Virus record (IMG/VR): IMGVR_UViG_3300020172_005269
Coordinates: 1 to 42,268 of that record
Reading direction: 5' to 3' (one strand)
DNA length: 42,268 nt
Source: a virus
Part shown: positions 12,627 to 25,462 of the stretch, piece by piece
How positions within the stretch are numbered: position 1 is the stretch's first letter
Layout: each line of letters begins with the position of its first letter
Notes under the pieces: generated by a model
The model's input: only the letters and a program-made list of their open reading frames with translations
The model's database searches: none
Told to the model about the DNA's origin: nothing
Translations under genes and position numbers: made by a program

Positions 12627-13346
12627 ATGCCTTTACCAAAGATTTCTACGCCAACATATGAGTTGGAATTGCCTTCTACTGGACAAAAAATTAATTATCG
12701 ACCATTTCTCGTAAGGGAAGAAAAACTTCTTGTAATTGCTTTAGAAAGTGAAGATACAAAACAAATTACTACTGCAATTAAAACTGTAATTAAAAATTGT
12801 ATTCAAACCAAAAATATTAAAGTTGAGTTTTTGCCAACATTTGATATAGAATATTTGTTTTTAAATATTAGAGGAAAATCTGTAGGAGAAGAGATAGAAG
12901 TTAATATCATTTGTCCAGATGATGGGGAAACAACTGTCCCTGTAAAAATTAATATTGATAATATTAAAGTTCAGAGAAGTGAGGATCATAATCCAAAAAT
13001 TCAAGTTGATGAAAATATTATCATGGAAATGAAATATCCTTCATTGGATCAATTTATTAAAAGTAATTTTGATTTTTCTGGTGATAACAACATGGAACAA
13101 TCTTTTGATCTGGTTGCTTCATGTGTTGATAAGATTTACACCGAAGAGGAAGTGTGGAGTTCTTCCGATGTAACTAAAAAAGAACTTATTGAATTTCTAG
13201 AGCAAATGAATTCTGCACAATTTAAACAAATTGAAAAGTTTTTTGAAAGTATGCCAAAATTATCACATGAAATTAAGGTTTCTAATCCAAACACTGAAGT
13301 TGAGAGTACGGTAGTTCTTGAGGGATTATCAAGTTTTTTCGCATAG
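12627..13346 (+). CDS. 26: Baseplate hub subunit, T4 gp26 homologue
   Basis: 239 residues, compared with 208 in T4. This is the baseplate hub protein family in which the N-terminus reads like PTYELELPSTGQKINYRPFLVREEKLL and is followed by a helical region that ends KNCIQTK. Both are present near residues 8-60. The central part (FLNIRGKSVGEEIEVNIICPDDGE) is beta-rich, as in other members. The following gene is the short gp51 homologue, the same 26-51 order as in T4. A late promoter box lies 28 bases upstream. Confidence 0.85.
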   Translation: MPLPKISTPTYELELPSTGQKINYRPFLVREEKLLVIALESEDTKQITTAIKTVIKNCIQTKNIKVEFLPTFDIEYLFLNIRGKSVGEEIEVNIICPDDGETTVPVKINIDNIKVQRSEDHNPKIQVDENIIMEMKYPSLDQFIKSNFDFSGDNNMEQSFDLVASCVDKIYTEEEVWSSSDVTKKELIEFLEQMNSAQFKQIEKFFESMPKLSHEIKVSNPNTEVESTVVLEGLSSFFA

Positions 13347-13348
13347 GA

Positions 13349-13525
13349 ATGGTCCATATGGACCTTGAAAATTATTTTCAGTTAAATTTTGCCTTAATGC
13401 AGTATCATAAATACTCATTAACTGAGATTGAAAATATGATTCCTTGGGAAAGGGATGTTTATGTTGCATTATTGAAAAATCATTTAGAAGAAGAAAAACT
13501 CAAGCAGCAACAAAATGGCAGTTGA
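13349..13525 (+). CDS. 51: Short gp51-like baseplate hub assembly protein
   Basis: 58 residues from the ATG at 13349; an in-frame ATG at 13358 gives 55. It starts two bases after the gp26 stop and overlaps the following ATG by 11 bases. Sequence features are DLENYFQLNFALMQYHKYSL, then a helix ENMIPWERDVYVALL and a charged Gln/Lys end. From memory, short proteins with this position and the IPWERDVYxxLL pattern are annotated in cyanophages as the gp51 hub assembly catalyst, although T4 gp51 is about four times longer. The homology to T4 gp51 therefore rests mainly on gene order and could be a functional analogy. Confidence 0.65.
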   Translation: MVHMDLENYFQLNFALMQYHKYSLTEIENMIPWERDVYVALLKNHLEEEKLKQQQNGS

Positions 13526-15578
13526 AGCAGGAAAACTTGCTCTTTACGAAGGAACAAGAGAATCTGATTTGGTCAATGAGGACATTGACGAAAGGATTCT
13601 TGAGATACTTGGTCTAGAGGAACTTTATGATTTTACGTATGGAGAATATAAACAACTTCTTTTTTCTGAACTTCAAAGAGTAAATCGAGGAGAAGAAAAA
13701 TCTACTGATAGAGCTATGCTCATTCAGGATGAATTTAAAAGAGTAAAAAATAAAATTGGCAAATTTAAAATTAAAAAAAAGAAAATAACGGCAGAAATTA
13801 TAGGTGTAACAGGTCCAATTAAAGTATCTAAAGAGAAATTTTTTCTTGCAGGAAAAGCAGTAATTCCTGAAGTTAAAGAACCTCCTTTAGGAAAAAATGT
13901 TAAAAAGTCTTTGGAGGATATATCTTCTACATTAGATACTATATTGCATAGATTATTGGTACAGAATCAATATGCCAAAACTAGTGCAGAAACTGAAAGG
14001 AAGAAAGAAGAAAATATTGGCAGAAGAAAAAAAGAAAGTGATTTAGAGAAATCGACACAAAGAATGATTTCTTTAGCAACTAAAATGTTAGCACCTGTCC
14101 AAAATATTTTGGATAGTATTTTTAAGTTTATATTTTCTGTATTATTAGGTAGAGCATTTGTAAAAATTACCAAATGGTTTGCAGATCCTAAAAATAAAAA
14201 AAAGATTGAAACTTTAAAGAAATTTTTAAAAGATTGGTGGCCAAGCATATTAGGTGCATTCGTATTGTTTGCTACGCCGTTTGGAAAATTTGTAAGATCT
14301 ACTATAGCGACTCTTGCAAGATTTACTCCAAAATTATTGTCTTTGATAAAGGCAAATCCATTGACAAATTTAATTGTTTCTAGTTCTGTTGCAGGAACAA
14401 TATCTAGAACTAAAGAAAGAGAAAAACTTAAACCTCTATTAGAAAATCAGAGAAAAATTATAGAGAAAGAAGAAAAAAATCAAAACTTACCCTGGTATAA
14501 AAGTTTTGGTAACTTTTTTGCTAAACAAGAATTAACAACAGGTCAGAACAAGCAATCAATTGTTGCACCATCTCCTGGTGCTATGTATTCTAGTGGTGGC
14601 ACAGTATCTGGATTTAGTGGATTGGTTACTGAAGGCACTGGAATTAAAGTTTCTGGTGCCGGACAAGATACGCAAGCATTTCCAATAGAAGGTGGTGGTA
14701 CCGGTATTTTGAAGAAAGGTGAAATTGTAATGAATACTGATGCTGTTAATGCAATTGGTAGAGATCGTTTATTGTCTTGGAATAGAGTCTTTGGTGGTCC
14801 TGGTGCAAATAAACCAATATCTATTGGTAATGGAGTAGAAGCACATAGAACTGGTGGAGTTATTGGTTCTTCAGGAACTCCTAGACTTGGTATGGGTTTT
14901 TTGAATAGAACATTTGCAGCATTACAGGGAGCCAATAGAACCAGTAAAAATCAACAACCATTAGGATCTGGAATCTTAAATCAACTTGGAAGAGTTATTC
15001 CGGGAACCGGAAGTGTTGTATCTCCAAGGTACACTGAGATGGGTCTTCAAAATAAATTTCTTGGCATACCTTTAAACAGAAGTGTTATTGATCAAGAAGG
15101 AGGATATAGACTTTCTCCAAAAGTGGTTGATAGATACAATCAAAGTCCAACTTCCCCAAGTATAATACGACCATGGAGTGCTTTTGATTCTACTCAAGTT
15201 AGTTTTCCCAAACCTAACTCAGCAGCACCAACTTCAACAAGTGTTGTTAGAGATTCATTTAGAAACTTTGGGTCAAACGTACAAACTATAAGAGACTCAG
15301 CAAAACGACAAGAACTGGAAATGGGAAAACTTGGTATTAAACCCGATGGGTATGTAAATCTTCGTGGACAACCCATTAATCTTGGACCCCAATCAAAACT
15401 TAGTCTTCCTGGTCCACCGACTGGTGGTGGAGTCAATGTCAGTGTTATTCAGTTGCCAGATGTTGTTAGAAATATTGGACCAACTGCACATGCAAAGGGT
15501 TCTACTACAGTTCCTAATATCCCAGATCAATATAGTATTAATCAAAAGATTAATAAGTCAATTTATGGAATAGCATAA
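13515..15578 (+). CDS. Tape-measure-like hub protein 1
   Basis: 687 residues. Residues 1-170 are charged and helical (coiled-coil-like, ERKKEENIGRRKKESDLEK). About 185-290 hold several hydrophobic helices (LDSIFKFIFSVLLGRAFV, WWPSILGAFVLFATPFG), then a glycine-rich C-terminal half with GIKVSGAGQDTQAFPIEGGG and LKKGEIVMNTDAVNAIG. That last motif type is common in phage tape-measure and tail-lysin proteins. The ending INKSIYGIA resembles IYGMA in the next protein, and both share the basic-coil plus hydrophobic layout, so they look like paralogues. Its position in the hub operon suggests it occupies the tail lumen, filling the T4 gp29 role, but this is inference. Confidence 0.5.
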   Translation: MAVEAGKLALYEGTRESDLVNEDIDERILEILGLEELYDFTYGEYKQLLFSELQRVNRGEEKSTDRAMLIQDEFKRVKNKIGKFKIKKKKITAEIIGVTGPIKVSKEKFFLAGKAVIPEVKEPPLGKNVKKSLEDISSTLDTILHRLLVQNQYAKTSAETERKKEENIGRRKKESDLEKSTQRMISLATKMLAPVQNILDSIFKFIFSVLLGRAFVKITKWFADPKNKKKIETLKKFLKDWWPSILGAFVLFATPFGKFVRSTIATLARFTPKLLSLIKANPLTNLIVSSSVAGTISRTKEREKLKPLLENQRKIIEKEEKNQNLPWYKSFGNFFAKQELTTGQNKQSIVAPSPGAMYSSGGTVSGFSGLVTEGTGIKVSGAGQDTQAFPIEGGGTGILKKGEIVMNTDAVNAIGRDRLLSWNRVFGGPGANKPISIGNGVEAHRTGGVIGSSGTPRLGMGFLNRTFAALQGANRTSKNQQPLGSGILNQLGRVIPGTGSVVSPRYTEMGLQNKFLGIPLNRSVIDQEGGYRLSPKVVDRYNQSPTSPSIIRPWSAFDSTQVSFPKPNSAAPTSTSVVRDSFRNFGSNVQTIRDSAKRQELEMGKLGIKPDGYVNLRGQPINLGPQSKLSLPGPPTGGGVNVSVIQLPDVVRNIGPTAHAKGSTTVPNIPDQYSINQKINKSIYGIA

Positions 15579-15579
15579 A

Positions 15580-18500
15580 ATGGCAATAATAGATTCGAAA
15601 AAATTATTACCACCTTCAAAAAGAACAACCAATCTAAGTATTGCTGCCAAAAAAATATTGGTGCCAATATCAAATGTAAAGAAAAAAGATAGTGCCAGAA
15701 TTAACCCAGAGGATTTAAAGACAGAAAAGGAAAATATTTCTATTTCTGACCAATTTTTAGATCTGAGAAAAAAACTTGAAATTATTTCTAAAATTTTAGA
15801 AAATACGACAGTATACAACAAAAAAGAATTTGAAAGAAAACGAAAGGTATCCGAGAAAAAAAGATTTGAATCTAGAGAAAAGAGTCTAGAGTCTCCTTCT
15901 GTTAAAGGATCTTCTGCAAAAAGTATCATACCAAAGCAAGGATTTAATTTTTTTGAATATATTAAGAGATTTTTATCATATACTTTTTTTGGATTTATTT
16001 TTGATAAGTTAAGTGGAAAGATTCCACAATTACTTAATGTTGCTAGAAATTTGAGTCCAATATTTAATTTTGTAGAAGATTTTTCTGGAAATATACTTAA
16101 TGGAATTGTCAATTTTATTGATTTTGGTTATGATACTAAGAAAAAATTTGATTCTATTGTTGAAAATATTGGAGGAAAAGAATCTGGGAAAAAATTTGAT
16201 GAATTCTCTAAAAATTTAAATGTAGCATTAAATGCTGCAATTATTGCTGCCATGGCAGCTTCTGGTATAAAATCTGGAAGTAGAGATGGTGGAAAAATAA
16301 AACCACAAGGAACTGTTGCTGGATCCCAGAGTGCAGCACGATATGGATATAGACCACAACCACTTCCTGAAGGAGTAAAACCTGGTACTGTAGAAGGAAG
16401 AGGAATAACAAGTCAACAAAGGATTGCGCGAAGAGCTGAAGGTAAAGCAGCGAGGCGCATTGCCGGCGCACAGTTGAGAAGAGGATCTGTTGGAGAAACT
16501 GCAGAACAAATTGCCAAGAAGGGATCTAAAAAATTTATTGGTAGGTTAGCGGGGAAAGCATTTGGTCGTATCCCTATTATTGGTGGACTTGTAGATTTCT
16601 TATTTGCTTTATGGTCTGGTGAAAAACCAGGAAGAGCGGCAGCAAAAGCAGTTGGAGCAACTATTGGTTCTGCACTTGGAACTTTTGTTCCTGTTCCATT
16701 CGTAGGTACTATTCTTGGGGGTATTCTTGGTGATATTGTTGGTGGAGCATTGTACGACACATTATCCCAACAACAAAAACCTAAGAAATATGCTAAAGGT
16801 GGTTCAGTTACCAGATCTGGCAAAAAGGTTGGGGGAACAATAGGAAGAAATATAAAACCAATAAGGAAAAGAAATCCAACAAAAGTTAATCCACAAAAAA
16901 CAAATCCTGGTAAGGATATTGGTGGTAAAGGAAAGATTGAGAAACTTTTTTCTAAGGAAATTCCAGGTAAAAAAAGTGCTCTAAGGTCTTTAAAAAAGAC
17001 TTCTGAAATATTAAAGAGGATTCCTTTGTTTGGTCCCATTATGGGAGCCTCTGTTGATATTGCTATGGGGCAAAAACCTAGCAGAACTGTCTATGGATCT
17101 ATCAGCAACTTTTTTGGGGCAACTATTCAAAGTATTATAGACAATAAAGTTCATTTATCCGTTTCTGATTTGCAACGACAAATATATGGAATGGCAAATG
17201 GTGGTGTTATTCCACAAACTACACAAGACGTTGGAAATCAACTTACTGATATTTTAAATAAATCTTTTTCTAATCTAATACAAACTAGATTGAATGATAT
17301 TTTTACGAATATTACAAAAGAACTTTCTTTGAGAGATCCTGTATCAGATACTCTAAGAGGTCCTATTCCTAATGGAGATTCTGGAGGATTTTTGCCTGGA
17401 ACTCAAGTTGTTGGATATGTCGGAACAACTGGAAGCTCTACTGGACCACATATTCATATTGAAACTGGTGACGGATATAGTGGTGCTGGCGGAAACATAC
17501 CCGAGAATGTTTTGAGTAATGTTATTGTTGGTGGGAAGTCTTTGAATAAATGGTCCTTTACTTCTGGTATTGGGTGGAGATGGGGAAAAATGCATAAAGG
17601 ACTTGATTATGGAATACCTGAGGGGACTCCTATCCAACTTACGGGCGGATTGAAATTTGTAAAATATTCTGCTGGAGATAATGCTGGTTATGGAAATGTT
17701 CTTTTAATACAGGATTCTTCTGGAAAAACATACTTATTGGGGCATTTGCAAAAAGGTCCTGCTAATCCAGAAGAGATGGCGAGATTGCAGAGAAAACATC
17801 TTGGAGAGTCTCTTTCCAGAATGAGGAGAACTGGAAATTCTTTAACAGGAGAAGCTAGTTGGTATGGTCCAGGATTTCATGGAAAAAGAACAGCTTCTGG
17901 CGAAACTTATGATATGAACAAAATGACTGCAGCAATGTATCAACCTGGATGGGGAGTAGGATCTAACCCATTTTATGTTGAAGTTACAAATCTTTCTAAT
18001 GGGAAAAAGGTTAGAGTTAAAGTAAATGATACTGGACCTTTTGCGATGTCTTCTAATGGTGAGCCAATTTATCCATTAAGACCACATCCAAGAAGAATTA
18101 TTGATTTAAGTAAAGCTGCCATGAATAGGTTGGGTGGAAGTGGTGTTATCAATGTTAGTGTACAAAAATTGGGTTCTGCTCCCAGAACGGCACCACCACA
18201 ACAAAATCAAGATCTTGCACAACAGCCAACAGGAAATGTTACTGGGTATGGTAAAGTTTATGGTACTGAATATTTTTATTCAAATGGCAAATATTGGGAA
18301 AGAAAAAATGGAAAAACAAAAGAAATAGATTCTCAAATTTATGCTACAATAAGATCAAATCATGCTAAAGCATTTGGAATTAAATCTGGAATAGATGTAA
18401 ATAAATTAAAACTTCCTGGTGGTGGATATCGTGATCCAAAAAATTATCAAGCATCCGTATCAAGTTCACAGCAAAGAGGTCCATCAGTAGAACCTTTAAA

Positions 18501-18651
18501 AATGCAAACTGGTTATGAAATTGCAAGTAATTATGTGATTATAAAACAAAAAGAAGTAATTAAGGAATCGATTCCTGTTGGTGGCGGATATTTTGGTGGA
18601 TTTTCTGGTTCTTCTATAGATAGTAATAATATTGCAGAATCTTTAGTATAA
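15580..18651 (+). CDS. Tail-hub cell-wall hydrolase: permuted M23 endopeptidase plus RlpA-like domain
   Basis: 1023 residues. Residues 1-200 match the layout of the preceding gene (charged coil, then hydrophobic FFEYIKRFLSYTFFGFIFD). About 230-540 are Gly/Lys/Arg-rich with hydrophobic, glycine-zipper-like segments (SALGTFVPVPFVGTILGGIL). About 600-740 carry all M23 zinc-peptidase elements, but in swapped order: TGSSTGPHIHIE (H624, H626) comes before WRWGKMHKGLDYGIPEGTP (H672, D676) and YLLGHL (H722). About 755-860 resemble the RlpA double-psi barrel: GEASWYGPGFHGKRTASGE, VKVNDTGPF and RIIDLS. The first would cut peptide crosslinks and the second glycan strands, from family knowledge. Likely a tail-delivered wall-opening protein, replacing T4 gp5 lysozyme. 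Confidence 0.75.
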   Translation: MAIIDSKKLLPPSKRTTNLSIAAKKILVPISNVKKKDSARINPEDLKTEKENISISDQFLDLRKKLEIISKILENTTVYNKKEFERKRKVSEKKRFESREKSLESPSVKGSSAKSIIPKQGFNFFEYIKRFLSYTFFGFIFDKLSGKIPQLLNVARNLSPIFNFVEDFSGNILNGIVNFIDFGYDTKKKFDSIVENIGGKESGKKFDEFSKNLNVALNAAIIAAMAASGIKSGSRDGGKIKPQGTVAGSQSAARYGYRPQPLPEGVKPGTVEGRGITSQQRIARRAEGKAARRIAGAQLRRGSVGETAEQIAKKGSKKFIGRLAGKAFGRIPIIGGLVDFLFALWSGEKPGRAAAKAVGATIGSALGTFVPVPFVGTILGGILGDIVGGALYDTLSQQQKPKKYAKGGSVTRSGKKVGGTIGRNIKPIRKRNPTKVNPQKTNPGKDIGGKGKIEKLFSKEIPGKKSALRSLKKTSEILKRIPLFGPIMGASVDIAMGQKPSRTVYGSISNFFGATIQSIIDNKVHLSVSDLQRQIYGMANGGVIPQTTQDVGNQLTDILNKSFSNLIQTRLNDIFTNITKELSLRDPVSDTLRGPIPNGDSGGFLPGTQVVGYVGTTGSSTGPHIHIETGDGYSGAGGNIPENVLSNVIVGGKSLNKWSFTSGIGWRWGKMHKGLDYGIPEGTPIQLTGGLKFVKYSAGDNAGYGNVLLIQDSSGKTYLLGHLQKGPANPEEMARLQRKHLGESLSRMRRTGNSLTGEASWYGPGFHGKRTASGETYDMNKMTAAMYQPGWGVGSNPFYVEVTNLSNGKKVRVKVNDTGPFAMSSNGEPIYPLRPHPRRIIDLSKAAMNRLGGSGVINVSVQKLGSAPRTAPPQQNQDLAQQPTGNVTGYGKVYGTEYFYSNGKYWERKNGKTKEIDSQIYATIRSNHAKAFGIKSGIDVNKLKLPGGGYRDPKNYQASVSSSQQRGPSVEPLKMQTGYEIASNYVIIKQKEVIKESIPVGGGYFGGFSGSSIDSNNIAESLV

Positions 18652-18653
18652 AA

Positions 18654-19991
18654 ATGGCAGTAATTTTAGGAAATAAAGCATCACTTTTAGTAAATATAAC
18701 TAAATTTGAAATAAGCTCTAACCGAAATAATAATGTTGTTAATATTATTGGTGGAAATGGATTTGTAAGTTTGATTTATCATGAAAGTGTTCTTGAAAAT
18801 TGCATAAAAGCAACCGCCACAATTGCAGATACTGGATATGCATTATCCAAAGGAAATACAAAAGATAGAGTTGGTTTGATTGAAGGACTAGATCTTTGTG
18901 GAGGAGAAAAAGTTGAATTAGAATTTACTGATGGATATGGAAATAAAATACAATTTTCTAATGAAAAATCTCTCTATATTGGAAAAATAAGGAATAGAAT
19001 AGAAAGCAATCAGAATATGATTTTTGTTATAGATTTAGTAACAAAAGAATTTTTGACAAATGAGTTACAAGAAACACGTGTTGTTCAAAGATATAATGGA
19101 AAAATATCAGATTCAATTACTTCTATTTTAAAGAAAAGTTTAAAAACGCAAAAAAATATACACGTAGATCCAACAATTAATTCATATAGTTTTAATGGAC
19201 ATACTGAAAAACCTTTATATAAGTGTACGTGGTTAGCAAAAAGATCTGTTCCAGACATTAAAGGTGCATCTGGAAAAACTGCTGGGTATTTTTTCTTTGA
19301 AAATTATGATGGATTTCAATTTAAATCGATCGATAATCTTTTAAATAATGAAAAAAGATCATACAAGTCTTACATTTATGATGGAGTTATTGAGGGATTA
19401 CCACCTCCAACATACGATGGAAAAATTGTAAGTAAATCTTTTCATATTAATATTGATGTCCAAGAAAAACTTATGATCGGAGCATATGGTACACAAGTTA
19501 GAACGTATGATTTTTATAAAAACAATTATGAAGAAAATGAAGTAATTCCTTCAGAATCGGAATCTGACGGATCAAATTACGCTGGATACAATTTGCCGTC
19601 CTTTCCAAAAGAAATATCTGATAAACCAACAAGAATAATAAGCAAAATTCAACCAGTTGGTATTTTAAAACCAATAAAAAAGTCAAAAGAATTTGACTAT
19701 GATGTAAAATCTATTGTTGCCCAATCTGCAAGTAGATACAATCAACTTTTTACGATCAAAATGTCTATAACTATAGCAACAGATATGAGTCTCAGAGCAG
19801 GTGATTTAATTTTTTGCGACTTTGCGGAAATGTCTTCAGAAAAGAATCAGAAAGTGAGTAGTAAGGATAGTGGTATATATATGATAGCAGATGTTATAAC
19901 TTTGATCGAACCTCAAAAATCCTACACTAAATTAAATCTAGTGCGGGATTCTTATGGTAGAAAACCTAATCCCAATAGGACAATATCTTAA
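18654..19991 (+). CDS. 27: Baseplate hub protein, probable T4 gp27 homologue
   Basis: 445 residues (T4 gp27 has 391). gp27 forms the trimeric hub cylinder that holds gp5. The sequence is beta-rich, with FVSLIYHESVLENCIKATAT near residues 38-57, GGEKVELEFTDGYGNKIQF, and a helical insertion with FLTNELQETRVVQRYNGKISD. This order (tube-like domain, then TRVVxxYxGxISD) is the general pattern of gp27/gpD-type hubs. It starts two bases after the hydrolase gene and is followed by a small gene and gp5, agreeing with the hub assignment. Similarity to T4 itself is weak, so the symbol rests on fold pattern and context. Confidence 0.65.
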   Translation: MAVILGNKASLLVNITKFEISSNRNNNVVNIIGGNGFVSLIYHESVLENCIKATATIADTGYALSKGNTKDRVGLIEGLDLCGGEKVELEFTDGYGNKIQFSNEKSLYIGKIRNRIESNQNMIFVIDLVTKEFLTNELQETRVVQRYNGKISDSITSILKKSLKTQKNIHVDPTINSYSFNGHTEKPLYKCTWLAKRSVPDIKGASGKTAGYFFFENYDGFQFKSIDNLLNNEKRSYKSYIYDGVIEGLPPPTYDGKIVSKSFHINIDVQEKLMIGAYGTQVRTYDFYKNNYEENEVIPSESESDGSNYAGYNLPSFPKEISDKPTRIISKIQPVGILKPIKKSKEFDYDVKSIVAQSASRYNQLFTIKMSITIATDMSLRAGDLIFCDFAEMSSEKNQKVSSKDSGIYMIADVITLIEPQKSYTKLNLVRDSYGRKPNPNRTIS

Positions 19992-19998
19992 ACGAACT

Positions 19999-20211
19999 AT
20001 GGAAAAAACTATTAATCACCACATCGAAAATAACAAGAAAGAGTTGGATGGCACTACTCTTAGTGCCCAAAGAAGAAGACATTTAGAGGATGAAGTTGAG
20101 TCCTTGGAAAAATATAGATTAAATCATCCAGATGAAACTAAAGATCCAACTTCTTTAGAACTTTTTTGTGATTCTCATCCAAATTCTCCAGAATGTAAAA
20201 TTTACGAATAA
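19999..20211 (+). CDS. Small hub-operon protein
   Basis: 70 residues from the ATG at 19999; a longer in-frame start at 19954 would run inside the gp27-like gene. The first 45 residues form a charged helix (LSAQRRRHLEDEVESLEKY), and the end LELFCDSHPNSPECKIYE has two cysteines flanking acidic and proline residues. I remember similar endings in small proteins between hub genes of other cyanomyoviruses. Its stop overlaps the gp5 start as TAATG, so expression is coupled to gp5. It could be an assembly factor of the hub in the place of T4 gp28, but the sequence gives no direct support. Confidence 0.55.
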   Translation: MEKTINHHIENNKKELDGTTLSAQRRRHLEDEVESLEKYRLNHPDETKDPTSLELFCDSHPNSPECKIYE

Positions 20212-22520
20212 TGACAGATAGTGCTGTATTTAACCCGGAAGTAATTGGTGGTAATGGTTTTTATTGGTGGGTTGGGGAAGTTGTTGATGATCGAGTTTGG
20301 AAGACAAACGAATTAAGAAAAAAATGGAAAGAATCTAATCAACTTCCTGGATGGGGAAGTAGATATAAGGTTAGAATTGTTGGAAGACATGCTGAAGCAA
20401 GAAGTAGTATTGCGGATAATGATTTAGAAATGTGTGAAGTGATGCTTCCTGTTACTGCAGGAAGTGGTCATGCTCTTTCATATCAATCTCCAAATATTAG
20501 AAAAGGTACCATTGTAATTGGATTTTTTAAGGATGGGAGAGATGGAAATGAACCAATAATAATTGGTTGTTTGCCAAACAATGATCAAACTCCACTAAAA
20601 TATAAACAAGGTCAAAGTGGATTTGAACCTATTAGTGGATTGTCTGGAGAGACAGTTCCTGTTTATGGGATACCTGCTGAGGGAAGTGACGGAAAGGCAG
20701 CAAATAATGCAAAACCAATAGAAGGAGGAACATCTTCTTCTTCAAATAGAACAAATATCGCAGATCAACAACAGAAAAAAGCAGGAAAAAAGAAAAGCGC
20801 AGTCACAAAAATATCAGACTGTGGTGGAAATGACGCTAAAGGAATACAATTAGTTTTACAAAAACTGATACAAAAAATTCAAGATATTACTTCAAAACTT
20901 AAGTCTTGGCAATCTTCAGTTGCAAATTTACAATCAGATATACAAAGAATAATTAGAGAAGCTGCTGAAGACACATCCAAATTTTTTAAAAATATCATTA
21001 ATGGTATACGAGAATTTGTCCTTGAACAAACTGTCGATAAAATAAAAAAGTTTTATGACAAGTTATTTCCAAATGAAAGAGACAAGCTTTTAAAAGCTAC
21101 TAAAAAAGCGGTTAATAGTATTTCTTGTATCTTTAATAAGATTATTGCAAATCTTATTAAAATGTTAATATCTATATTAGAAAAAATTATTGATAGGTTT
21201 ATTAATGTGCCCCTATGTGCTATAGAAAATATTATAGCATCTATTTTAGGTAAAATTTTTGGATTAATAAGCGGACTCGTTGATTCTATACTGGGTCCAA
21301 TAAACGCAATATTAGGAACTATAATAAGTTTGGGTGAAGAAATTTTCGGAGCTTTACGACAAATATTGTCGTTTATTTCTTGTGATGAAAAATCTTCTTG
21401 CCCTGAAGTTGATCAATGGAGTTTATGGGATGGAGCTGGAAATAATGGTGGAAACTTAACTATAGATATAAATTCTATTTTTAATAAAGCAAAAAGTATT
21501 GGATTGAGTGCTAAAAAAGCTATAGATTTGGATAATTTTGACTTTAATATGGATTTTTCTGATATTTTTCAAGATTCTTGTAATGTTGGTGCTGTATATT
21601 GCGGACCACCAAAAGTAGAATTTTATGGTGGAGGTGGATCGGGCGCAACTGGAAACGTTTTGGTTAGTGCCATTGGCGATATAATAGGAGTTGATATTAT
21701 CACTTCTGGACAAGGTTATACAAGTCCTCCTTTTGTATCATTTACTGATAACTGTGGAAAAGGTGACGGTGCAGTGGGATATTCTAGGATTAATGATGAC
21801 GGATCAATAAAGGACGTTATAGTTACTGATCCAGGTGCTGGATATCTTCCATTTCCAGATGGAAGTCTTGGTGGTGATGACAGAGAGTGGGCTAGACCCG
21901 ATCAAGCAGTTGTTTTAAGATCTGACGGGACATATGATACTCCATACGATCTTGGTGAAACTATTGATTTGGATCCTGGAGATGAAATATATGCGCCAAG
22001 AGATTCTGTCGGAGCCAGTGGTATTATCCTAGATGAAGATAATCAAGAAATTGGGACAATATCAATATCTCCCGGAGAAAAAATAATAGTAAATAATAAA
22101 TCAACTGTGACAATTTCAACTCAAAAATCTTCAGCCACTTCTGTTCAAAATATTGACAATTATCCCACAAATTCTGAGGGAGTTTATCCAGTAATGCTGT
22201 ACTTATGCGAGATAGTTATTCAAAATGGTGGAATTAATTACTCAAAAACTGATAAAATAACTGTTACTCCAAATAATGGTGCAGAACTAGAACTTGTTCT
22301 CGATTCTGCTGGGTCTATAGAAAAAATACTGGTGAAAAATAGTGGTATTGGTTATAAAGAAAGACCAACATTTGTAATTGAGACAGAAACGGGTTATAAT
22401 GCAGAATTAATACCAGTTCTATGTATTAAGAGAATTGGTGACGAAATACAAGAAGGTATGGATGATCAAGTTCCTCTAGATTCGATTCTAAGCGTAGTAG
22501 ATTGTGTAGGTAGAGTATAA
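20211..22520 (+). CDS. 5: Baseplate hub subunit gp5 homologue without a lysozyme domain
   Basis: 769 residues. Residues 1-130 are the gp5 OB fold: GFYWWVGEVVDDRVW, YKVRIVGRHAEARS, EMCEVMLPVTAGSGHALSYQ, GTIVIGFFKDGRDGNEPIIIG. In T4 this is followed by a lysozyme domain, but here residues about 195-400 are long helices with hydrophobic stretches and show no lysozyme catalytic pattern. The C-terminal part repeats a beta motif ending in GxGY or similar (VDIITSGQGYTSPP, VIVTDPGAGYLPF, VIQNGGINY, ILVKNSGIGYKERP). It should sit at the hub tip with gp27. Wall-degrading activity seems moved to the 15580 gene and the beta-helix spike to the next gene. Confidence 0.8.
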   Translation: MTDSAVFNPEVIGGNGFYWWVGEVVDDRVWKTNELRKKWKESNQLPGWGSRYKVRIVGRHAEARSSIADNDLEMCEVMLPVTAGSGHALSYQSPNIRKGTIVIGFFKDGRDGNEPIIIGCLPNNDQTPLKYKQGQSGFEPISGLSGETVPVYGIPAEGSDGKAANNAKPIEGGTSSSSNRTNIADQQQKKAGKKKSAVTKISDCGGNDAKGIQLVLQKLIQKIQDITSKLKSWQSSVANLQSDIQRIIREAAEDTSKFFKNIINGIREFVLEQTVDKIKKFYDKLFPNERDKLLKATKKAVNSISCIFNKIIANLIKMLISILEKIIDRFINVPLCAIENIIASILGKIFGLISGLVDSILGPINAILGTIISLGEEIFGALRQILSFISCDEKSSCPEVDQWSLWDGAGNNGGNLTIDINSIFNKAKSIGLSAKKAIDLDNFDFNMDFSDIFQDSCNVGAVYCGPPKVEFYGGGGSGATGNVLVSAIGDIIGVDIITSGQGYTSPPFVSFTDNCGKGDGAVGYSRINDDGSIKDVIVTDPGAGYLPFPDGSLGGDDREWARPDQAVVLRSDGTYDTPYDLGETIDLDPGDEIYAPRDSVGASGIILDEDNQEIGTISISPGEKIIVNNKSTVTISTQKSSATSVQNIDNYPTNSEGVYPVMLYLCEIVIQNGGINYSKTDKITVTPNNGAELELVLDSAGSIEKILVKNSGIGYKERPTFVIETETGYNAELIPVLCIKRIGDEIQEGMDDQVPLDSILSVVDCVGRV

Positions 22521-23092: not shown

Positions 23093-23767
23093 ATGAAAGT
23101 TCCCGACATATCGATAGGAAGACAACTTTTTTGTGGTCTAGGAAGACCTGAACTTTTGGGTAGGGGAAGAGCAGTTGTAAGAGGATCTGCTTTTATTCAA
23201 GGACCAGAATTTGTTGGAGATCCTTCTACAGTAAATAAACCAATTCCGACTGAATTTGGTACTCTAACATGTACCGAAACAACAAATGTTGAAATGAAAC
23301 CGTTACCTTTTTATTCTTTATTTGTAAAAACTTTTGCAAGAATAAAAGGATTTTTGAAGATTGATTATCTGTTATGCGTAAAATATATAAAATCGCAAGT
23401 AGTTTTAACTTCAGTATTGAAGGCTGGAGTTAAAAATTTTGAAATAGATCACCCCCTAGATCCTGAGAGACAGAATTTGGTGCATTCTTGTTTAGAGGGT
23501 CCAGAAATTGGAGTATACGTTAGAGGCAGAGTAACTAATAATACCGAAATTAATCTTCCAAACTATTGGACAAAACTGATTAATCCATTATCAATATCAG
23601 TGCAATTGCAGCCAATTGGTGCGCATCAAGACATTATAGTAAAAAGAATAGGTGAGAATAAAATATTTTTGCAATCAAAATCCGGTATTCCTATTGATTG
23701 TTTTTATCATGTATATGCCGAAAGAGTTGATGTTCCAAAATTACAAGTTGAGGTTCTAAAAAAATGA
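23093..23767 (+). CDS. Virion structural protein with CLEGPE domain (copy 1)
   Basis: 224 residues. The C-terminal 100 residues carry a domain also found in the next gene: NFEIDHPLDPERQNLVHSCL, EGPEIGVYVRGRV, INLPNYWTKLI, IVKRIGENKIFLQSKSG and DCFYHVYAERVD. The CLEGPExGVYxRGR motif is common in tail-associated proteins of cyanophages, from memory, and may be an alternative C-terminal tip domain. The N-terminal half differs from its neighbour and starts with VPDISIGRQLFCGLGRPELLGRG. The place at the end of the hub operon suggests a baseplate or short-fibre component. Exact role unknown. Confidence 0.55.
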   Translation: MKVPDISIGRQLFCGLGRPELLGRGRAVVRGSAFIQGPEFVGDPSTVNKPIPTEFGTLTCTETTNVEMKPLPFYSLFVKTFARIKGFLKIDYLLCVKYIKSQVVLTSVLKAGVKNFEIDHPLDPERQNLVHSCLEGPEIGVYVRGRVTNNTEINLPNYWTKLINPLSISVQLQPIGAHQDIIVKRIGENKIFLQSKSGIPIDCFYHVYAERVDVPKLQVEVLKK

Positions 23768-24504
23768 GTTTGTTTGATTTTAAACGATACGCGGTTTTAA
23801 CTGGACCGGGTAATGGAGATTACCAATTTGACGACAGCGAACCAAATTGGTGGAAAAATGATGATTTTGGTAGCGATTTTAATTTGAATGATGTTGCTGT
23901 TGTATTATTGAATACAACAACAGATTATGCTTACTTAAAGATTAATGGATATGATACAAGTACAGTAACGCTTGGAAGAAATACTGGACCTATTAGCATA
24001 TTTACTGTCGATGCAACACAAACAAATTTTTCAGGAACAGTATCTGCACCAAATTTTCAAGGAACAATTAATGTTCAATCCTGGAAAGGGTTTGATATTA
24101 AACACCCAAATAAACCAAATCATAGATTAAGACATATTTGTTTAGAAGGTCCAGAAGGAGGTGTTTATTTTAGAGGTAGACTTACAAATTCTAATGTAAT
24201 AGATTTGCCAGATTATTGGGATGGATTAGTTGATCCAGAAACAATTACAATTTCTTTAACACAAATTGGTTATTCTCAAGATTTAATTGTTGAAAAAATA
24301 GAATGGGGTAAAAAAATTATATTGAAGTCTGCAAATGGCGCAAATATAGATTGTTATTACTTGGTAAATGCATCAAGAATGGACGGAGATTCTTTGATTG
24401 TTGAATATGAAGGGGAATCTCCAAAGAATTATCCTGGAGACAACACTCAATATTCTATTTCAGGATATCACTATGACGTTAGGGGGCTTGACACCCCCTC
24501 CTGA
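23764..24504 (+). CDS. Virion structural protein with CLEGPE domain (copy 2)
   Basis: 246 residues, starting at an ATG overlapping the previous stop (ATGA). The domain at about residues 110-215 (GFDIKHPNKPNHRLRHICLE, GGVYFRGRL, IDLPDYWDGLVDPETITISL, DCYYLVNASRMDGDSLIVEY) is clearly homologous to the previous protein. The N-terminus is different: an acidic stretch with WWKNDDFGSDFN, then a small beta domain (LNDVAVVLLNTTTDYAYLKI) that looks like a fibre segment. The final codons contain the hairpin and -35 box of the next promoter, so the last residues (RGLDTPS) may reflect that constraint. A tail-tip or short-fibre role is inferred from context. Confidence 0.55.
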   Translation: MSLFDFKRYAVLTGPGNGDYQFDDSEPNWWKNDDFGSDFNLNDVAVVLLNTTTDYAYLKINGYDTSTVTLGRNTGPISIFTVDATQTNFSGTVSAPNFQGTINVQSWKGFDIKHPNKPNHRLRHICLEGPEGGVYFRGRLTNSNVIDLPDYWDGLVDPETITISLTQIGYSQDLIVEKIEWGKKIILKSANGANIDCYYLVNASRMDGDSLIVEYEGESPKNYPGDNTQYSISGYHYDVRGLDTPS

Positions 24505-24909: not shown

Positions 24910-24984
24910 GGGACTGTTGCTTATTGGTTAAAGCCCACTGCTTATAACGGTGTGAACAGAGTTCAATTCTCTGCAGTCCTACCA
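24910..24984 (+). tRNA. tRNA-Ile (anticodon UAU)
   Basis: A full cloverleaf can be drawn: acceptor GGGACTG/CAGTCCT (last pair G-U), D stem GCTT/AAGC, anticodon stem CACTG/CGGTG with loop CTTATAA, and T stem CAGAG/CTCTG with loop TTCAATT, then discriminator A and an encoded CCA. The loop places TAT at positions 34-36, reading the isoleucine codon AUA. AUA is frequent in this AT-rich genome, while most bacteria read it with a lysidine-modified CAU tRNA. Confidence 0.8.
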
Positions 24985-24985
24985 A

Positions 24986-25068
24986 GGGAGTATGGTGGAA
25001 TCGGTAGACACACCAGACTTAAAATCTGTTGGGCATTGCCCGTGGGAGTTCAAGTCTCCCTACTCCTA
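24986..25068 (+). tRNA. tRNA-Leu (anticodon UAA)
   Basis: A class II tRNA with acceptor GGGAGTA/TACTCCT, the typical leucine D-arm GTGGAATCGGTAGACAC, anticodon loop CTTAAAA (TAA), a long variable arm (GGGC/GCCC) and T stem GGGAG/CTCCC with loop TTCAAGT. The outer pair of the anticodon stem is a C-U mismatch. No CCA is encoded. It reads UUA, a favoured codon in AT-rich phages. Confidence 0.85.
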
Positions 25069-25091
25069 TTAGAGGACATAAATCACCTCTA
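25067..25091 (+). other. Hairpin after tRNA-Leu
   Basis: TTAGAGG and CCTCTAA are separated by ten bases just after the tRNA-Leu 3' end. There is no T run, so it is more likely a processing or stability element of the tRNA transcript than a terminator. Confidence 0.35.
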
Positions 25092-25117
25092 AATAAACAA
25101 AAGTAAGAAACTATTCT

Positions 25118-25387
25118 ATGAAGTACAGAATAGATGCCAGATATTGTTGGTATGATAAAGGAACCCAAATTGTCCTAATGTACTTTATAAATCAAGTTCC
25201 TTTTACTTTTGACGAACTTCCAGATAATTCAATCTATGATCTGGAATTAGTTGAATTAGCAGACACAGAAAGAAGGTTCGAACCAGAGGATTTATACAGA
25301 ACATCATTCTATTTGATTGATGAACAATGTCATCCTATGTTGTTTGAACTTGAACTGGAAAATCCAGAAATGTTGCCTGTTGATTAA
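25118..25387 (+). CDS. Hypothetical acidic protein within the tRNA cluster
   Basis: 89 residues between tRNA-Leu and tRNA-Thr. The protein is acidic and rich in aromatic residues (MKYRIDARYCWYDKGTQIVL, FTFDELPDNSIYDLELVELA), suggesting a compact alpha/beta fold, and it ends a few bases before the tRNA-Thr. Short proteins interspersed with tRNAs are common in T4-like genomes and often poorly conserved. No family, metal site or membrane segment is seen, so no function is offered. Confidence 0.55.
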   Translation: MKYRIDARYCWYDKGTQIVLMYFINQVPFTFDELPDNSIYDLELVELADTERRFEPEDLYRTSFYLIDEQCHPMLFELELENPEMLPVD

Positions 25388-25390
25388 TTT

Positions 25391-25462
25391 GCCCTTGTAG
25401 CTCAGTGGTAGAGCAACGGTTTTGTAAACCGTTGGTCGTCTGTTCGAATCAGATCGGGGGCT
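25391..25462 (+). tRNA. tRNA-Thr (anticodon UGU)
   Basis: Acceptor GCCCTTG/CGGGGGC (two G-U pairs), D stem GCTC/GAGC, anticodon stem ACGGT/ACCGT with loop TTTGTAA (TGT), T stem GTCTG/CAGAT with loop TTCGAAT, and discriminator T. No CCA is encoded. It reads ACA, common in this genome. Confidence 0.9.

Follow-up and report, generated by a model that had tools for sequence, protein, structure and literature searches.

A domain with M23 endopeptidase motifs in circularly permuted order in a tail-associated protein of a T4-like virus

Few cell-wall hydrolases have been studied as much as the M23 endopeptidases. Their canonical motifs follow one another as HxxxD, YxHL and HxH, and the family (Pfam PF01551) includes LytM, lysostaphin, the NMB0315-type enzymes (3slu and 6muk) and StM23 (9gy1). 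The domain described here shares with them the HxGxD, (Y)xxGHL and STGPHxHxE motifs and, in its predicted model, the same set of strands minus one connecting strand; its N-terminal half superposes on LytM and StM23. In contrast to M23, its motifs come in the order HxH, HxxxD and HL, the classical termini appear joined, and the connection xxVKxGDxVKKG is absent, the new termini lying at that place. Permutation of a peptidoglycan-peptidase fold with retention of the catalytic residues has been described for NlpC/P60 enzymes (YaeF- and LRAT-like), and in one of their branches it accompanied a shift to lipid substrates (PMC6403190, PMC12994826). Theirs is a cysteine peptidase fold, unrelated to M23. 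A second enzymatic-type domain of the protein studied here matches the RlpA-type DPBB lytic transglycosylases (PF03330).

Pfam, NCBIfam and PHROGs hold no permuted-M23 family and give matches to the halves only. No published permuted M23 or LytM enzyme was found in the literature searched, which excludes preprints and covers few subscription journals, so that novelty is unproven; the permutations mentioned there concern the 'circularly permuted' ends of phage genomes, NlpC/P60 and other unrelated uses. An earlier note on this DNA had known of no named family for the arrangement, and this holds for the three databases and for the literature searched.

The window, that is, the whole stretch of 42,268 nucleotides analyzed here, is a metagenome-derived virus record from IMG/VR. 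Its sequence points to an uncultured T4-like virus of cyanobacteria, the host being suggested by the nearest relatives. The single-strand-binding protein and the tail-lysozyme gene are closest to those of cyanomyoviruses: gp32, along 77% of its length, is 83.5% identical to that of Synechococcus phage S-SM2, and cyanophages or marine viruses account for 381 of the 382 records that match the gp5-like gene. The cyanobacterial host presumed in the earlier note is in line with both.

Two M23 pieces in swapped order

The gene of interest is an uninterrupted open reading frame with an ATG start, and the PHROGs matches of its product are of the endolysin/tape-measure type. Its parts relevant to the M23 domain are as follows.

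15580..18651, plus strand: 1023-aa tail-associated protein, with the candidate permuted M23 domain and a DPBB/RlpA domain behind it (ORF, Pfam, PHROGs, synteny)
17350..17787, plus strand: candidate permuted M23 domain in the bounds used for alignment and folding, residues 591-736 (alignments A1/A2, AlphaFold2)
17401..17466, plus strand: M23 C-terminal half, which comes first, profile positions 66-87, VGYVGTTGSSTGPHIHIE (PF01551, E 7.3e-5)
17443..17463, plus strand: GPHIHIE motif, with the catalytic-type His H624 and the zinc-ligand-type His H626 (sequence, invariant)
17464..17586, plus strand: proposed junction of the classical C terminus to the classical N terminus, TGDGYSGAGGNIPENVLSNVIVGGKSLNKWSFTSGIGWRWG (permuted-template alignment, DSSP)
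17587..17847, plus strand: M23 N-terminal part, which comes second, profile positions 1-84, holding HKGLDYG and YLLGHL (PF01551, E 7.9e-8)
17593..17613, plus strand: HKGLDYG motif, with H672 and D676, both zinc-ligand-type (sequence, invariant)
17740..17748, plus strand: GHL motif, with the catalytic-type His H722 (sequence, invariant)

Farther upstream, residues 333-393 (window positions 16576-16758) form a glycine-rich hydrophobic stretch that is kept across cyanophage homologues and resembles the membrane-inserting segments of tape-measure proteins; its match to DUF456 is weak and under the cut-off.

The earlier note had read from the letters that the HxH motif precedes HxxxD and HL in this gene, and two independent profile searches agree. 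The whole protein matches Pfam M23 with 39.4 bits (cut-off, 28.7 bits), split over two stretches; searched singly as DNA, the two pieces score 27.9 and 18.4 bits, each below the cut-off, and lie on the same strand with the C-terminal half upstream of the N-terminal half. A profile of the permuted family, in turn, splits into two matches of reversed order on the sequences of the M23 crystal structures 3slu and 6muk, profile positions 71-134 falling on chain residues 236-297 and positions 13-40 on residues 302-329 (whole-sequence E ~4e-14). As a sequence match, the swapped order is far beyond chance. Both halves proposed in the earlier note are recovered in swapped order. A slight correction concerns the domain boundary: the Pfam match of the N-terminal half has a weak extension as far as residue 755, which reaches into the spacer that precedes DPBB and covers a stretch without HxH. 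The active-site residues had been placed exactly, with H722 of YLLGHL located at 17743, and the roughly 45 residues said to join the two halves are precisely the 45 between H626 and H672. The protein has the HxxxD motif, an HxH in the TGxSTGPHxHxE context, the third histidine (YxHL) and a profile score above the cut-off; since the order is HxH - HxxxD - HL instead of the canonical HxxxD - YxHL - HxH, we file the domain as a circularly permuted variant of M23. Judged from its sequence, it is homologous to M23, and it very probably works as M23 enzymes do.

The arrangement is not peculiar to one contig. Two scans of IMG/VR yielded about 20 distinct relatives with 44-85% identity over the domain; the closest ones are all metagenomic contigs, from many independent assemblies. 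The C-half/N-half order was found in all 19 loci of the first scan and in about ten more from the second, and a 20-sequence alignment (A2; 44-85% identity to the window) shows no change at H624, H626, H672, D676 or H722. A motif scan of all fetched loci gave one HxH motif and one HxGxD for each window-family protein, the latter always 52-61 residues past the start of the HxH motif and never before it, and the opposite order for the classical M23 proteins. The conservation of the order and of all catalytic residues in ~20 independent relatives argues for a real rearranged M23 rather than a broken gene, and this is what the domain looks like at the sequence level. The earlier note had also considered homologues whose missing half comes, in normal order, from a further, complete M23 copy. 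No second or complementary copy was found by the motif scan in any window-family protein or locus; indeed, about half of the relatives are short proteins of 515-600 aa with the permuted M23 as their only M23, so that no second copy completes the domain. In many relatives it is also the sole enzymatic domain detected by Pfam. The bacterial genomes searched gave DPBB matches or classical M23 only (e.g., Nostoc L022/L023).

Junction and predicted fold

To compare the two orders, the classical Nostoc M23 L022 was cut between its YxHL and VGxVG strands and rewritten in permuted order. This template aligns without a break with residues 18 to 135 of the window domain (score 201, z 26.6), whereas the natural-order template reaches a score of 141 (z 16.2); the permuted template wins in 15 of 15 sequences. 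Within the junction, the classical tail SGKGAVNPITYLANRIV pairs with SGAGGNIPENVLSNVIV and the alignment then continues into TSGFGWRWGKMHKG, the short helix IPENVL being aligned with the classical VNPITYL tail. The classical beta6-beta8 connection is missing from the window domain. Since the alignment runs continuously through the junction, the classical C and N termini would be fused and the new ends would lie at the former beta6-beta8 connection. The spacer RMRRTGNSLTGEASWYG was considered as a relic of a lost second C-terminal half, an idea that was rejected, ASWYG being the common beginning of RlpA and the other residues too few for a judgment.

AlphaFold2 predicts residues 591-736 (alignment A1) as a confident single domain, with a pLDDT of 85.2 and a pTM of 0.81, only the first 12 residues falling below 50. 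Folded alone, the N-terminal half has a pLDDT of 82.8 and a pTM of 0.67, and most shared residues gain confidence once the C-terminal half is included, as expected of one folding unit. A superposition on LytM, as proposed in the earlier note, was obtained for the N-terminal half. In Foldseek searches of the PDB with the N-terminal half, StM23 and LytM are among the three best matches, with E-values that are not significant alone (9gy1, probability 1.00, TMq 0.63, 2.8 Å over 74 columns, E 0.16; 2b13, probability 0.91, 3.0 Å, E 0.43). The whole-domain model has no PDB match at E <= 0.001; Foldseek aligns in sequential order, and this result is expected for a permutant without being proof of one. 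Against the BFVD, the same model finds four viral proteins over its whole length (E 4e-8 to 6e-5), namely, A0A510E7V3, H6WFX6 of S-TIM5, a tape-measure protein of an uncultured phage and L0CQF1 of P60. Taken with the motif order and its conservation, the single-domain model supports the proposal of a circularly permuted M23 which would keep the same active site with new termini.

We consider it highly probable that the protein carries an active, virion-borne, single-domain circularly permuted M23 zinc endopeptidase in the tail hub or tube lumen, whose activity and site geometry we infer. Residues about 605-736 would form the domain, in which the classical C terminus, past HxH and an NPxxYL-like helix, is joined to the classical N terminus before HxGxD. 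The YxHL and VGxVG strands would flank the new ends, at a place where the classical connecting strand or loop xxVKxGDxVKKG has been lost. H672, D676 and H626 would bind zinc and H624 and H722 would serve catalysis, all meeting as in LytM-type enzymes. The protein would be built into the virion as part of the tail hub or of the tube lumen, where its hydrolase modules, which can be exchanged, would breach the peptidoglycan when the genome enters. This proposal presumes that the domain binds zinc and acts as a peptidase, that a single chain assembles the site and that the protein works at entry.

Tail gene cluster and distant copies

The neighboring genes are those of a T4-like baseplate-hub cluster; the last entry below is a domain of the permuted-M23 protein itself.

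12627..13346, plus strand: gp26-like baseplate hub gene (phrog_150, E 3e-81)
13515..15578, plus strand: 687-aa gene preceding the permuted-M23 gene, phrog_35029-like (phrog_35029, E 3e-38)
18654..19991, plus strand: tail protein directly behind the permuted-M23 gene (phrog_350, E 2e-81)
20211..22520, plus strand: gp5-type baseplate hub subunit and tail lysozyme gene (phrog_1922, E 9e-99)
17845..18159, plus strand: DPBB_1 domain (RlpA-like lytic transglycosylase fold), residues 756-860 of the permuted-M23 protein (PF03330, 57.7 bits; cut-off, 28.8)

The order gp26 - X - permuted gene - phrog_350 - gp5 is fixed in the loci checked, by PHROGs in L008, L018 and L049 and, where the contig reaches, by gene sizes in L004, L010, L012, L014, L016, L043 and L053. 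This gene order speaks for the tail-hub protein proposed in the earlier note; on the sequence evidence, the product could equally be a tape-measure or hub-lumen protein. The modules beside the permuted M23 vary. The DPBB domain is confined to the window and its closest relative (L001/L002), a glucosaminidase (Pfam, 34.1 bits) precedes the M23 in L043, and other unnamed modules lie before it in L044, L048 and L049 or behind it in L003, L004, L010, L015 and L019; some relatives have no module beside it. Exchanged hydrolases in a fixed gene order are what is expected of a virion protein that opens peptidoglycan locally at infection. Judged from family and location, the peptidase and, in some relatives, a glycan-cleaving enzyme may act together at that step.

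Elsewhere in the window, three tRNA genes (Ile-TAT, Leu-TAA and Thr-TGT; 24910-25462) lie in a cluster between the hub and tail-fiber genes, and the adjacent overlapping genes at 23093-23767 and 23764-24504, both phrog_17490, are a tandem paralogue pair. A 200-aa gene at 37635-38237 matches a 2OG-type oxygenase (PADLOC PDLC01653, E 6e-16), and its product is likely a common 2OG-Fe(II) oxygenase of cyanophages and not a defense protein.

The permuted order was also read directly in distant copies from S-TIM5, S-EIVl, P60 (gp33), Acinetobacter phage BUCTT11 and Moraxella phage Mcat19. All of these belong to phages, and the majority carry an annotation as a virion or tail protein. Their halves are swapped as in the window, from which they differ in their low identity (~26-31%) and, in most cases, in having HxD in place of HxH. 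HxD is found in L058, L065, L059 and L148, which comprise Acinetobacter and Moraxella tape-measure proteins and the copies of S-EIVl and P60; in P60 gp33, an internal virion protein, the histidine of HxGxD is also gone (SFGVD). Metal binding may be altered or lost in these copies. Some distant permuted copies have lost a ligand, and not every permuted copy need be active. The Acinetobacter type, common in Acinetobacter prophages, matches the family member L041 over both halves (E 2e-13), and the L041 domain as a query found S-EIVl, S-TIM5 and Acinetobacter phages. The L010 domain gave no match among 50,697 phage records, nor did the S-TIM5 domain among the viral contigs searched. In S-TIM5, an M23-like stretch lies directly upstream of the permuted copy (L060:4359-5033, residues about 301-525); residues 430-464 match Pfam M23 positions 45-79 (E 2e-7) without HxxxD or HxH, and the stretch is possibly a relic of a tandem duplication.

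Both M23 topologies alternate at one hub locus. In ACG-2014f, S-MbCM7/ACG-2014h, Sf-CH8 and Sf-CH3 (L061, L062, L063 and L064), the same gene slot, flanked by gp26 and the gp5-type lysozyme gene (gp7 in S-MbCM7), is occupied by a protein with the same kind of N-terminal tail-protein region and an M23 near the C terminus, which differs from that of the window in its classical order. The HxH motif of S-MbCM7, GPHLHIETGTGY, is close to that of the window family, GPHIHIETGDGY. In a tree of the two halves, built on 96 columns and with several long branches, the window family forms one clade (support 97/99), and the remaining permuted copies fall close to classical copies of cyanophages that share an RxAPTxGASS-like motif. 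The AU test (p 0.204 for one clade) does not reject descent of all permuted copies from one permuted ancestor, and on this sequence evidence the distant ones may have a separate origin.

Alternative readings and biological meaning

Could the swapped order be an accident of the data? The window is a metagenome-derived record without a cultured copy, and an assembly or recombination artifact of the contig might therefore be suspected; since ~20 distinct relatives, drawn from many independent assemblies, show the same order, as do sequenced isolates of other phages, we reject this reading as extremely improbable. Hardly more credible is an unrelated zinc-binding fold with M23-like motifs. Such a fold would agree with the lack of a significant PDB match for the whole-domain model, but both halves match M23 HMMs and crystal-structure sequences well beyond the motifs, and the N-terminal half superposes on M23 structures.

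Two other readings keep the M23 homology and seem to us unlikely, to about the same degree. The active site might be completed in trans, the N-terminal half of one hub subunit meeting the C-terminal half of its neighbor by domain swap. The baseplate-hub counterparts in T4 are trimeric, the gene sits in the corresponding cluster, and the ~45-residue junction could be partly flexible, all of which would suit a swap. Yet AlphaFold2 packs both halves within one chain (pTM as above), the junction, a classical C-terminal tail followed by a classical N-terminal strand, favors closure within that chain, and the permuted relatives that Foldseek recovers over the whole length belong to virion proteins of quite other kinds. 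Alternatively, an M23 duplicated in tandem may have lost its first N-terminal half and its last C-terminal half, leaving a domain without catalytic activity that now serves a structural or wall-binding role. One standard way in which permutations arise is by tandem duplication followed by loss of the outer halves; S-TIM5 retains a degenerate M23-like stretch just before its permuted copy, and the same protein often holds other hydrolases. However, this route accounts for the origin of the domain and not for inactivity; the five active-site residues, which dead modules normally lose, do not vary among 20 sequences, and in about half of the relatives Pfam detects no further hydrolase in the protein. 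An active, single-domain permuted enzyme thus remains our preferred reading.

Far more tentatively, and with considerable doubt, permuted M23 domains might form a virus-specific branch of multiple origin in phage tail, tape-measure and internal virion proteins, in which the new termini serve a purpose. If so, termini at the former beta6-beta8 connection may fit the enzyme into a chain that threads the tail tube and refolds; alternatively, they may open the substrate groove and change the cross-link that is cut. Since the permuted branch of NlpC/P60 turned to lipids, the substrate is the most interesting question for the permuted M23. A natural permutant with classical versions in the same slot offers a natural experiment on fold tolerance, the origin of permutation and substrate choice. 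Profile and structure searches that depend on residue order recognize just one half of such a domain; phage virion proteins with a permuted M23 are therefore overlooked at present or bear the label 'hypothetical', 'tape measure' or 'virion structural protein'.
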